From positions 62,001 through 126,000 of the forward strand of contig VWND01000035.1 of NCBI GenBank assembly GCA_009599575.1: 64,000 nt of DNA, given 5' to 3'. Positions 30,757-47,177 of this stretch are shown piece by piece (positions within the stretch are counted from its first letter, which is position 1; each line of letters begins with the position of its first letter). Position numbers and translations under genes: made by a program. Under the pieces are notes generated by a model. That model saw only the letters and a program-made list of their open reading frames with translations. It was not told where the DNA came from and did no database searches. This DNA is from Blumeriella jaapii. Taxonomy: Eukaryota; Ascomycota; Leotiomycetes; Helotiales; Drepanopezizaceae.

Positions 30757-31648
30757 GGTTTTCGCTCAGAAGCCGTTGTAGAATAAGCCCTTTCTTGTAC
30801 AGCATGCATGTCTTATCGCTCAATACTAATAAATCAAAAATTCCCAAGCTTCTGTTTTGACTCATGATGTTGCAATCCACAGCATCTCTCAGTCCTATCG
30901 TACGCCTTTGACAAAAGCATTGAACTGCTTTTTGTACGTGAAGTTTCTCGCGCTTGACCGATTTCGAAAAGCTTTTAAAAAGCCAACAATCTGTGCGTAG
31001 ATCCAAAATGGTGGTTATAATTCCGTACACACGCTTCCCAAAGTCCAGTCCAGTCTGAACTTCAATAACCAAATTACATGGCTCAACTCACTGCCCGCCC
31101 GTCTCCGTGCTGCTGTTATCTCTAGGAACGGACAATTCTAGCGATCAGGATACTCCGATCCGATATTAAACATCGAAGTGCCGCTCGGCTAGACAAGTAC
31201 ACGTTCGAGGAAAAGCCCGTCCGTGTCTGTGAAAGAAAGGATGTGAGCAGAAAATCCCAAATACACCGTTTATGAGTCTCCGCACGTTAATAGCAAGGCA
31301 CTCGGCTGTTTCTGATCATGACGGACATTTGAATCTTTGAGGGCAAACACTATAAACAGTCTTTTCCGGTGATGTGTATACGCAAGCGATTACCGAGACC
31401 TTTGACACCGACCTGCGGGATAACAACAACAATAAACTTTGAGCCGACCGGCAGCTGGAAGCTCGGCTCTGCTTCTACCGGAAAAGGAGCTCCGTTTGCC
31501 GACTCACCGATCCGTAAAAGCTTTTCTTCATAATTGCCTGGGCATTGAGCAGGATAGGGAGGTGGTCTGGCTTTGAGACTCGGGGGTTGGCAACTTTTAT
31601 GCTCTCTGAATAAAATACATTACTTCCGGACAATACGTTTTTTCCTAA
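30757..31648. other. Intergenic region before the octamer satellite
   Basis: About 0.9 kb with no supported gene; it borders the ATACATAG repeat. Confidence 0.4.
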
Positions 31649-31978
31649 ATACATAGATACATAGATACATAGATACATAGATACATAGATACATAGATAC
31701 ATAGATACATAGATACATAGATACATAGATACATAGATACATAGATACATAGATACATAGATACATAGATACATAGATACATAGATACATAGATACATAG
31801 ATACATAGATACATAGATACATAGATACATAGATACATAGATACATAGATACATAGATACATAGATACATAGATACATAGATATAAAGATACATAGATAC
31901 ATAGATACATAGATACATAGATACATAGATACATAGATACATAGATACATAGATACATAGATACATAGATACATAGAT
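31649..31978. repeat. (ATACATAG)n satellite, about 41 copies
   Basis: An 8-bp unit is repeated almost perfectly for about 330 bp, with one variant unit near 31881-31888 (ATATAAAG). On the minus strand all three frames are open and read the same cyclic Y-L-C-I-Y-V-S-M peptide, because the 8-bp unit cycles through frames every 24 bp. It ends 16 bp from the stop codon of the histidine kinase. Confidence 0.95.
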
Positions 31979-31994
31979 TCGTATATCAACAGCT

Positions 31995-34900
31995 TTAATT
32001 CCGTTTTCGGTCCGCCCACTTGACGAGCATCTCCTCCAGCCGCGTCTTCTCGACCGGTTTAGCGAGGTAATCGTCCATGCCAGCCTCATGGCACTTTTCC
32101 CGGTCGCCCTGGATGGCAGACGCTGTCATGGCAATGACTGGGATATCCCTCAGGTAGCCTTTCCCTCTCGTCCCGATCCTACCTTTTTCAACGCTCACGC
32201 CAGCTGCACCTCCCGTCGGGCTAGATCCCGAGATCGCGTTCTCTCTATCTCTGTCCTGCTCTTGATGATCTAGCTCGGGCGTGCTGTCACCTTCTTCGAC
32301 AATCGAAATCCCTTCGTCGCAATCTCGTGCGTATTCGGCGTGGGAACGTAAGGTGCGCGTAGCTTCATAGCCATCCATGACGGGCATCTGTACGTCCATA
32401 AGGATGATGGACGGGCGCGGCTGGAGCGCCGAAGGCGATAGCAGGTACGAGAGCGCTTCGCGGCCGTTCCAGACGGCCGTCACCGGGAAGCCTAGTTTTC
32501 GAACGTTCTTTATGGCAATGATTTGGTTTATCGGACTGTGAGACGTACGTTGTGTCAGTCAAGATACGGTGAAGTGGAAACTTCATGCGAACACGACATA
32601 TGAAGGTAAGCGAGAAACGTGAAATATCAAAGTGCGTACTTGTCTTCGACTACGAGTATATGAATACGGCGCCGTTGTTCGGGCGTAAGGCGTGGAACTG
32701 GGGTGTTGGCTTTGTTGTCGATGGAGACTTTTCGAAAGGCAGCTGGTATTGATGGCGCCTGATAGCTTGAATTAGACGTCACGCTGCTGGATATCTGCTG
32801 ATTGAGTAGATCCTGGCGAATGGATCGGTGGCTGAACGGCACGGCCCATGAGGGAGATCTTAAAGGGGTAGGGAGACGAAAGCCAAGGTTTGGCGATGGC
32901 GAAGAGTTATCTCGCTGGTGATCGCGATGCCATGATGAGATTTTGAGAGGTATCGTGAACCTAGCTTTGCTTCCAACGCCGGGGGTAGACTCAAGCTCGA
33001 CCGACCCCTCCATCAAGCTTGCAAGCTACGTCTTATCAGTACCATTCACGTTCAAGTCAAGAGTCGCTCACATTTCTCGAGATTGTCAACCCAAGACCGG
33101 TGCCACCATAGAGTCGCGCTGTGGAGGAGTCTCCTTGGTTGAAGGGTACGAACAGCTTGTCGAGACCTTCTTCTCGATCCCGATGCCCGTATCTTCGATC
33201 AGAAACTGCACTTTCACCGAGTCTTCGGCACTCTCTGATTCAACCAGGGTGGACGTCACGGTGAGCTTGACAGTGCCCTGTTTTGTGAACTTCAACGCAT
33301 TTGTCAAAAGATTAGACAGAACCTGTCTAGTCCGCCCCGGATCTCCCACGACTTCTAGGGCCTCGTCCGTGAAGTTTTCATAGACAAACTCAAGTCCTTT
33401 CTGATATGCAAACATGCCCAGGAGCTTGCAAAGTTCACCGATGACAGAAGACAAGTGAAACGGCACTTTTTCTATATCGAGTCGGCCGCTTTCAATTTTG
33501 GAAAAATCGAGAACGTCGTTTACGATTGTCAGCAGCGCTTTTGCAGAGAGATGGATGCTGTTAACGTATTCTCGTTGTTCGTTTGTCAAGGTTTGGTCAT
33601 CTGCTAACAGCTCGACCATGCCGATGACACCCTTGTGAAGTGTCAGCGCTATCATAGATAGAAGGGGGGATCCATCCCTACAGAGGTGGGAGTTCTCATC
33701 TCGTGGGACATCTGTCAGGTCAGCAAAAGCCTAGAGCCAATTTTTTATGAGCCTTACATTCGCCAAAAATTGGCTCTTCATCTGGTTCGAATCTTTGGCG
33801 GCCTGTTCTTCCACCACCAACCTGTTGTTGTCCAGCTCCAAGGCGACTCGTTGTTTCAAATCTGTCACGTCTATGCTTAAGCCCAGGACGCCCTTTATTT
33901 CGGGTTGCAATGCACCATCCATCGCGTTGTGTTCTAGATCTGCTACTACACGAGTGCGGAAGACCTTTGAGCCAATGTTATCTTCTGATTGGGCAACGCC
34001 GAATTTCCCAGCCAGGATATCAAGAATGTTCTTCTCATATTCTACTACAGATTAGCCATTGATCGATAGGAATAGAAATCACTGACCAGGGAGGCCGCCT
34101 GGTTGGGTCTTTTGGGCAACTTCGATTGCATCTAGGCCTATCAGGGACGATTTGTTATTGATATCGTACGTGTTTTCCATCGAGTCCCAACTAGCACCCC
34201 CTTCGGCCATAGTGATTATTCGTTTCTTGTCAATCGAGAACAGATTCACTTCCGCGTGAGCCAGCACGGTTAGCATTTGAAGTCTGTTCCTCGCAGCTTC
34301 GATTCTAGCCATAACGAGGTCATGGATATCGGTACATGTCCCGTACCATTGCAAGATCTTTCCATCGTCACTCGTCAAAGGGCATGCACGATCAAGCATC
34401 CATCTATACACCCCATCGTGGCGTCGATAGCGGACTTCGGTATCGAACTCGGTGCCTGTGGTTAGATGAATTTTCCAGGACTCCATCAGCGGACACCAGT
34501 CATCCGGATGTATTACCTTCTGAAATCCCTCGCCAATCGACTCTTCTCTGCTGAGACCAGTGAAATCATACCACTGTGATTCTCAGCTTGAAAGTTGTGT
34601 GCCCGGCATTTCGCCGTAACTTACTCGCTCTGAAAACCAGTCGGCTTGTCCATCGGTTTTGGTCGTCCAGACCAGATGAGGCATGAGGTTGCAAATCGTC
34701 TCATGACTCCTCAGACGTCGCTGTTGCTGATCTACCAGGAAGTCCGAGTACTCTTGAACCTCTCTGCACCAACACAATCCCCCTAAGAATTCCCCCGTGT
34801 CATCGTCGTAAAGACACTCTCCATCAACGTAGGTAACGATTTTGTCCCCAGTCACGGCGTGTACAAATCCGCATCGATAGTCCGTGAAGGGCACCTTCGC

Positions 34901-45800: not shown

Positions 45801-47036
45801 TTAGTTGTCTGTGTAGTTGACCGGACAGCGAAAGAGGGATGATGGTGATAATTCGATTGCCTCAAATTTTGCAGGCTTGAGGCCCCCGTATTGGTAGGGT
45901 AGTGGGGTATAGGGGAGTTTGAGGGTCGATTGGGAGGAGTATCTGGGGGTGTGTTGAGAGTACATTTAGCGTGCATAGAAAAGTAATTCTGGTGCTTTCT
46001 TGTTTGATGCCAAGATCTTTGTGGTGTATGTTCTACATACACTTACAACTAGACGACGAGATCGTCCGGGCTTTTTCAGACTACTGGTGGTCTTTTCATG
46101 GCATGAGGGAAGCCGTCTGACAATACCTCTGTCCCTAAGTAAACGTCATCGGGTTTTCATTTTCCTCTTCCTTTTCTCGTTCTTTCGGCTTTGAACCCGA
46201 AGCTTAGTGGCTGGAAGTAGGCTACGATAGGGGGTGTCCCAACAAGACAAGCTGCACTTGGACTTCAGGTGCATGTAGGTAAGCAATGATCACGAACAGA
46301 GTTACAAGGCAAGCATGATAAAATTAATTGCCCGCGTCTATATCTAGATTCCGAATCCACCCCCCGCCAAAGCAGGTCCTTCCTTATATTATCGTTGCCG
46401 TTTATAGCAAAATCCTATCATTAATTGAATGACACCAGTGATAATGTATATGTCCGTCCACCCAGACTCTTGATATCGTGCCAACGTACTTAAGGAACTC
46501 GACTCTCTAGTATCGGATTTTCGTTTCTTCAACTTGCAGAAAAAGCGACTTCTAGAATTGTTTCAAGTACTTCCACGACACAGTTGTCACACGCTAAGTA
46601 GAATGACCAGGTACTGGAAGGATCCGATGCTTATGCGCCTGACTTGTAGATCTTGGCGTAAGTGGTTTCTAGAATGTGTTTAATGGCGGGAGTAGGTACT
46701 CCGTTGCCATTTATAGCTCTGGTCTAAATTTGCAGGTTTTCTGGTCTGGTCTGGCTAAGACTTTGGCTGTGAATTCGCGTTGGCCAGCTTCTTATTCAGG
46801 CAGAAGCTGATGTCTTGGGGACACCTGGGTACAAAGGAAGACCTGTTAATTATTTCAGTATGGAAAAAAATATAAACGGACAGATAGCGGGTACGTGGTC
46901 CGGAATCGGCTATGGTTTCTGATGGCCGAAACTTCTATGGGCGAAACGTCTATGACAACTTTTATCGTTGGTTGTGTGGTCTTTGAACTCCAAGAAAATA
47001 TAAAAAAATTATTCACAAAGTCCAAAAAGTATCTTT
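45801..47036. other. Intergenic region between SEC24 and tRNA-Pro
   Basis: No gene is supported. It includes the SEC24 3' region and, next to the tRNA, the T5 Pol III terminator (47024-47028 on the minus strand). Confidence 0.5.
47024..47028 (-). terminator. Pol III T5 terminator of tRNA-Pro
   Basis: Five T on the minus strand start 9 nt beyond the tRNA 3' end at 47037; a T7 run follows at 47002-47008. Confidence 0.7.
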
Positions 47037-47177
47037 GGGCGCATCCCGGGATTGAACCGGGGCTGAAGAGTTGTTAGATGTTGTTGGTCATGGAAACAAT
47101 TGGAGATAACTTACACCTCTCGCAATCATGTTTAGAGTGAACCCTAAGCGAGAATCATACCGCTAGACCAATGCACC
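47037..47177 (-). tRNA. tRNA-Pro(AGG) with a canonical intron and a second, spliceosomal-type insert
   Basis: Read on the minus strand, the gene shows acceptor stem GGTGCAT/ATGCGCC with discriminator C, A-box TGGTCTAGCGG, anticodon stem CTCGC/GCGAG around TTAGGGT (anticodon AGG), T-stem CCCGG/CCGGG and T-loop TTCAATC (B-box intact). Two stretches interrupt it: 17 nt after position 37 (the normal eukaryotic tRNA intron site) and 52 nt in the variable loop (47063-47114). Without both the molecule is exactly 72 nt with every stem paired. The 52-nt insert starts GTAAGT, has CATCTAACAA near its end and finishes CAG, the signature of a fungal spliceosomal intron. Pol III elements and terminator are present, so the gene looks usable if both inserts are removed. 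Homology to tRNA-Pro is clear; removal of the second insert is inference. Confidence 0.85.
47063..47114 (-). other. 52-nt GT-AG insert in the tRNA-Pro variable loop
   Basis: Boundaries AGGT|GTAAGT and TTCAG|CCCCGG restore a five-base variable loop (AGGTC) and a perfect T-stem. The CTAAC branch-like site lies about 12 nt before the CAG. Length and signals match neighbouring pre-mRNA introns (46-54 nt). Confidence 0.7.

Follow-up and report, generated by a model that had tools for sequence, protein, structure and literature searches.

Several nuclear tRNA genes of the Blumeriella jaapii genome carry spliceosomal-type introns, a conclusion that the sequence comparisons described below strongly support. 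In the stretch of DNA analyzed here (64,000 nucleotides, hereafter the window), a tRNA-Pro(AGG) gene contains a 52-nt insert in its variable loop, which is very probably a U2-type spliceosomal intron in a working, Pol III-transcribed gene; the same explanation also covers U6 and eight further interrupted tRNA genes in the genome.

The sequence of the minus strand from 47177 to 47038 agrees with the two inserts claimed in the first-pass annotation, namely one of 17 nt after position 37 and one of 52 nt with GTAAGT, CTAAC, and CAG in the variable loop. The gene is composed as follows:

47038..47177, minus strand: the tRNA-Pro(AGG) gene as a whole, both inserts included (141 nt when the discriminator base at 47037 is counted)
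47142..47177, minus strand: exon 1, tRNA positions 1-37, 36 nt (coordinates counted from the sequence)
47125..47141, minus strand: 17-nt intron at 37/38, tRNA-endonuclease type (from ARAGORN; identical in the second copy)
47115..47124, minus strand: exon 2, TGCGAGAGGT, tRNA positions 38-47
47063..47114, minus strand: spliceosomal-type intron of 52 nt in the variable loop at 47/48, GTAAGT...CTAAC...CAG
47038..47062, minus strand: exon 3, from tRNA position 48 through the 3' strand of the acceptor stem
47160..47170, minus strand: A-box, TGGTCTAGCGG (read by eye)
47048..47058, minus strand: B-box, GGTTCAATCCC (read by eye)
47024..47028, minus strand: T5 run, probable Pol III terminator

The A-box, B-box, and T5 run are thus all present, as had been claimed; the boxes were assigned by comparison with the consensus, and the T5 run begins 10 nt 3' of the gene, within which T runs do not exceed three. 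The 52-nt insert, placed between T47 and C48 in our own numbering, begins with GTAAGTT and ends with CAG, 11 nt after the presumed branch A of CTAAC. In its genomic form, the gene was matched by neither ARAGORN nor Rfam; with the 52-nt insert removed, ARAGORN returned a tRNA-Pro(agg) of 72 bases with a 17-nt anticodon-loop intron, which bears out the 72-nt tRNA expected once both introns are out. By itself, the motif match of the insert is weak evidence: GTAAGT-N-CTRAC-N-YAG has two matches in the window, one of them being this insert, compared with an average of 0.6 and at most 3 in 30 dinucleotide shuffles. A 51-nt match in the same window sits between Sec24-like frames. It is the existence of a second gene copy and of other interrupted tRNA genes that places the Pro insert beyond chance.

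Elsewhere in the window, a GST-like neighbor has its best named relatives in Leptodophora, Cadophora, and Oculimacula (59-62% identity), with many other Leotiomycetes lower. A minus-strand frame at 31475-32125, made up mostly of a repeated YLCIYVSM unit, adjoins a response-regulator-like frame and is probably a tandem repeat.

The check proposed in the first-pass annotation, a search of the genome for Pro(AGG) copies with and without the insert, recovered two, both with it and at the same site. The second copy, at C91:693683-693823, carries an insert of 53 nt. Between the two genes, the tRNA body and the 37/38 intron are identical at 88/88 nt, while the insert interiors (compared without the first 7 and last 3 nt) match at 20/45 aligned columns, which is the level of shuffles (300 averaged 22.1, and 85% reached 20 or more). 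Despite this, GTAAGTT, CTAAC, and CAG are kept in both inserts; CTAAC occurred at a suitable place in 4% and 2% of the shuffled interiors. The flanks match at 73/114 columns on the 5' side and at 54/110 on the 3' side, and blastn of the 6.5- and 7-kb regions around the genes gave a single match of 249 columns at 76%, spanning the gene and near flanks. By this comparison, the two genes are old duplicates. An exact body, a lost likeness of the interiors, and retained splice signals are as predicted for a spliceosomal intron in a working gene.

Two other candidates were rejected at this locus. A repeated mobile element was discarded because a 341-nt query (gene plus flanks) matched the two Pro loci only, and a single dead copy was dropped after the second copy and two pattern searches. 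A search for relatives gave no match in viral_contigs or genome_contigs, which hold viruses and prokaryotes and where a fungal match could only be contamination. The two pattern searches of the genome (allowing up to three and up to two mismatches) found five Pro-type genes, namely two AGG, two UGG, and one CGG; the UGG and CGG genes have, by eye, the 37/38 insert only. Neither search found an insert-free Pro(AGG) gene, although a copy with a heavily changed D and anticodon arm could escape them. A tRNA-like sequence at L071 61-132 (G000:C71:1184087-1184158), with a low score of 36.8 bits and called Pro(cgg) by ARAGORN, is unlike the other proline genes.

Beyond the two Pro-AGG genes, seven other tRNA genes are interrupted (two Glu-UUC, Leu-CAA, Arg-CCG, Ser-GCT, Cys-GCA, and one Arg-like), which makes at least nine among the at least ∼62 nuclear tRNA genes seen (42 + 11 + 9, with L071 doubtful). 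Their inserts, with positions assigned by reading in our own numbering, are:

Pro-AGG: window, 52 nt at 47/48; C91, 53 nt at 47/48
Glu-UUC: C1 and C13, each 53 nt at 12/13
Leu-CAA: C18, 51 nt at 9/10
Arg-CCG: C1, 97 nt at 29/30, GC-AG
Ser-GCT: C3, 56 nt at 5/6, acceptor stem
Arg-like: C91, 51 nt at 10/11
Cys-GCA: C1, 148 nt at about 15/16

Insert lengths fall between 51 and 56 nt in seven of the nine genes, similar to the 51-nt match between the Sec24-like frames, which favors a spliceosomal reading; the two long inserts (97 and 148 nt) count against it. The donors are GTAAGT (five), GTAAGC (two), GTAGGT (one), and GCAAGT (one), and every insert ends in AG, giving GT-AG ends in eight genes and GC-AG in one. 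The distance from CTAAC to the intron end is 9-13 nt in eight inserts and 21 nt in Cys, where, as in Ser and the Arg-like gene (all three found by a CTAAC pattern) and in the window gene (chosen for its motifs), it is not an independent observation. All of the genes except the Arg-like one have, according to ARAGORN, a 37/38 intron in addition to the insert. With the inserts in place, ARAGORN found no gene in six and a wrong gene in three; with the inserts removed, it named Pro, Pro, Glu, Glu, Leu, Arg, Ser, and Cys, as well as, weakly, Arg(ccg) of 88 bases and no intron for the Arg-like gene.

An empty site is available for Leu-CAA: the C10 paralogue (L070) reads GGACAGATGGCCGAGTGG, whereas the C18 gene reads GGACAGATG, the insert, and then GCCGAGTGG, and the remaining differences between the two lie mainly in or near the 37/38 intron. 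L046 is a diverged Glu-UUC gene that has no D-arm insert. Read by eye, the A-box and B-box are intact in both Pro genes, whereas the insert splits the A-box in the two Glu, the Leu, and the Arg-like genes and displaces it in Ser, which counts against working Pol III genes. In Leu and the Arg-like gene, the intron-final AG occupies, by our reading, the place of G9 or G9-G10 of the A-box, part of which is retained. The Arg-like gene itself (L129 205-340, G000:C91) combines a D-arm GT-AG insert with an irregular anticodon loop that has C where T33 is expected, and it may be degenerate.

Only in the Pro pair are the splice signals alone conserved between the inserts; the Glu pair, whose interiors are alike beyond shuffles, does not lend such support. 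Among the 28 pairs of eight introns (U6 included; Arg-CCG and Cys left out), the Glu pair was clearly alike, and a kinship of the Glu-C1 and Leu introns, which passed a 0.02 screen with a score of zero, was not accepted. The two Glu introns (L132 and L133) share the block TTTCGCTACAGATCTTG, the rest differing more, and this block includes TTCGCTA, which is able to pair with the acceptor 3' strand; the sharing of the block counts against the spliceosomal explanation. We also observed that CATCA or CATCAA often stands ∼10-30 nt upstream of tRNA 5' ends, interrupted genes included; it is possibly a start-site motif.

The interrupted genes came from several searches of unequal specificity. The Rfam tRNA model gave 60 matches among 63 scored of 2167 candidates, 23 of them on C36 and the other 37 taken for analysis. 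C36 is dense in tRNA matches, several of which are equal-scoring pairs, and is probably a mitochondrial genome whose assembly contains an overlap or repeat. For each of 42 loci (the 37 from Rfam and five found by pattern, L012-L015 and L020), ARAGORN reported a tRNA, with some names wrong, such as Ser for both Pro-UGG genes; in the same run, it called none at either Pro(AGG) locus. A B-box pattern produced 225 matches (reversed control, 163), and among the matches listed, 40 regions were followed up, comprising 21 unseen exact and 19 one-mismatch regions (two too short to use). ARAGORN called 13 of these 40, two of them wrongly (L088 and L095), and a split-tRNA scan together with inspection by eye, with no splice signal demanded, found four interrupted genes in them: the two Glu-UUC (L089 and L095), Leu-CAA (L098), and Arg-CCG (L088).

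Two patterns that required CTAAC ahead of a B-box core matched 55 and 64 times, against 129 and 162 in the reversed controls, so that nearly all were background; 19 loci were fetched, the remainder being judged by eye from printed rows (some from the first 80 letters only), and these patterns yielded the Ser-GCT, Arg-like, and Cys-GCA genes. Patterns joining a donor to a B-box returned the two Pro genes, both with GTAAGT (3 matches; reversed control, 4) and in an earlier version (14 matches; control, 13), whereas the eight matches with GTATGT (control, 7) included none that read as a tRNA. The split-tRNA scan, which is blind to inserts in the acceptor stem (the Ser insert being one), was run on 223,628 bases (overlaps included, and in regions enriched by choice) and flagged eight genes, all of them among the nine. 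Seven of the eight satisfy the rule of GT/GC-AG ends plus CTAAC, Cys failing solely through its CTAAC at 21 nt. Mononucleotide shuffles totaling 972,620 bases gave no flagged gene.

The U6 model had a single match among 47 scored of 2846 candidates, and here a 51-nt stretch, GTAAGT...TACTAAC...CAG (L072 181-231; G000:C7:1619206-1619256), sits between GGCATTTGGTC and AATTTGAAACGATACAGAG. The Rfam alignment pushes the 5' stem of U6 into this stretch, and the exons, once joined, presumably resemble yeast U6. Judging from these features, spliceosomal intron removal appears to extend to U6, another of the genome's Pol III transcripts. Within the U6 intron also lies TGGTCAAGCGG, which is A-box-like. 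No insert was found in 25 matches to 5S rRNA, each of 120 bases (47 of 2115 candidates scored). Taken with the paralogue comparison and the seven further interrupted genes, the U6 intron lends support to the proposal of the first-pass annotation that a spliceosomal intron would be removed from a Pol III tRNA transcript.

The same annotation had allowed that the tRNA endonuclease might cut the insert, which would then be a second tRNA-type intron, as in archaea, Cyanidioschyzon, and cryptophyte nucleomorphs, where ectopic and multiple tRNA introns occur (PMC4090602 and PMC3978253). We regard this as very unlikely. In a bulge-helix-bulge test covering the two Pro genes, the exact site formed two of the four central pairs in both copies, so that neither has the motif there; the C91 copy does permit two four-pair motifs, each requiring that both cuts be shifted, but no complete motif can be formed within 4 nt in the window copy. 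Moreover, the helix would need to outlast an interior that has diverged to shuffle level, GT/GC-AG ends and CTAAC are unexpected for endonuclease introns, and the yeast endonuclease is described as strictly confined to 37/38 (PMC4033280).

Still less likely is that insertions have damaged the interrupted genes and left them dead or dying, an option also raised in the first-pass annotation for the Pro gene. The insert-free copies of Leu-CAA (L070) and Glu-UUC (the diverged L046) and the irregular appearance of the Arg-like gene would fit such decay. However, the insert occupies one and the same site in the two Pro(AGG) genes, which are identical at 88/88 positions of body plus 37/38 intron, though inserts and flanks have drifted, and the Glu-UUC exons are identical outside the 37/38 intron. 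Furthermore, no insert-free Pro(AGG) gene was found by the two pattern searches, yet 47/75 proline codons are CCC or CCT in three long frames of the window.

Long variable arms occur in class II tRNAs, and a Pol II transcript would naturally meet the spliceosome, but the idea that the insert is kept in the mature tRNA as such an arm, or that the genes are transcribed by Pol II, is the least likely of all, since structure is weaker in the Pro inserts than in shuffles (-1.3 versus -2.5 and -2.6 versus -6.8 kcal/mol), inserts in other genes interrupt an acceptor, D, or anticodon stem, which must pair, and the internal promoters and downstream T runs fit Pol III.

From the anatomy of the Pro gene, its second copy, and the other interrupted genes, all of which can be read in the DNA, we infer a course of transcription and splicing, including the order of its steps. 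Pol III would produce a Pro precursor carrying two introns; the spliceosome would then excise the 52-nt GT-AG intron in the nucleus, restoring the variable loop AGGTC; and the tRNA endonuclease and ligase would excise the 17-nt 37/38 intron after the spliceosomal step. Folds predicted for a Pro RNA that keeps the insert but lacks the 37/38 intron are not cloverleaves, which is weak evidence on this order, since the fold of the insert-free RNA also has no D-stem. Most of the interrupted precursors would need both the spliceosome and the tRNA endonuclease. More broadly, and with moderate confidence, we propose that this lineage may use the spliceosome as a regular tRNA-maturation machine, the introns having entered acceptor-stem, D-arm, anticodon-stem, and variable-loop sites, with at least one isoacceptor (Pro-AGG) present in interrupted form only; translation would therefore depend on the spliceosome, and the intron-bearing U6 would be a possible feedback link.

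A 2026 review treats tRNA splicing as spliceosome-independent (PMC13149111), and the tRNAscan-SE 2.0 paper limits eukaryotic tRNA genes to one intron (PMC8450103), with algal and nucleomorph exceptions on record (PMC4090602). In searches of an open-access literature collection, we recognized no report of a nuclear tRNA gene interrupted by a spliceosomal intron. The interrupted genes would break the rule of spliceosome independence and widen the exceptions to the one-intron rule. They also allow a direct test of how far the spliceosome reaches into Pol III transcripts. The interrupted and uninterrupted paralogues are, in addition, material for the study of intron gain, and a standard tRNA scanner misses or misnames the interrupted genes.

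Among known systems, the spliceosomal introns of fungal rDNA, which are explained by reverse splicing, are likewise mRNA-type introns in non-coding RNA, but their hosts are Pol I transcripts. Canonical 37/38 introns are present in eight of the nine interrupted genes, where they are the other intron, excised by endonuclease and ligase. In archaea, a variable-loop tRNA intron reportedly occurs in Thermofilum pendens. The tRNA introns of archaea, Cyanidioschyzon, and nucleomorphs resemble the present ones in lying outside 37/38 and in numbering several per gene (PMC4090602 and PMC3978253), but either they are attributed to bulge-helix-bulge motifs cut by the tRNA endonuclease or their mechanism is not known, whereas here the inserts have GT-AG or GC-AG ends and a branch-like CTAAC. 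U6 introns in fungi are reportedly the subject of Canzler et al. (2016). The closest likeness in kind of intron is to such fungal genes: U6 introns are known in fungi, and U6 snRNA and U3 snoRNA are named as the sole small structured RNAs in which frequent interruption by spliceosomal introns is known (PMC5832005). As here, these are mRNA-type introns in small structured RNAs, U6 is a Pol III transcript, and the U6 of this genome is also interrupted; the difference is that the present hosts are tRNAs of at least six isotypes, eight of the nine with a 37/38 intron too. U6 thus already provides a case of mRNA-type introns in a Pol III transcript, and what is new, as far as searches of an open-access literature collection tell, is the tRNA host and the meeting of two splicing systems on one RNA.
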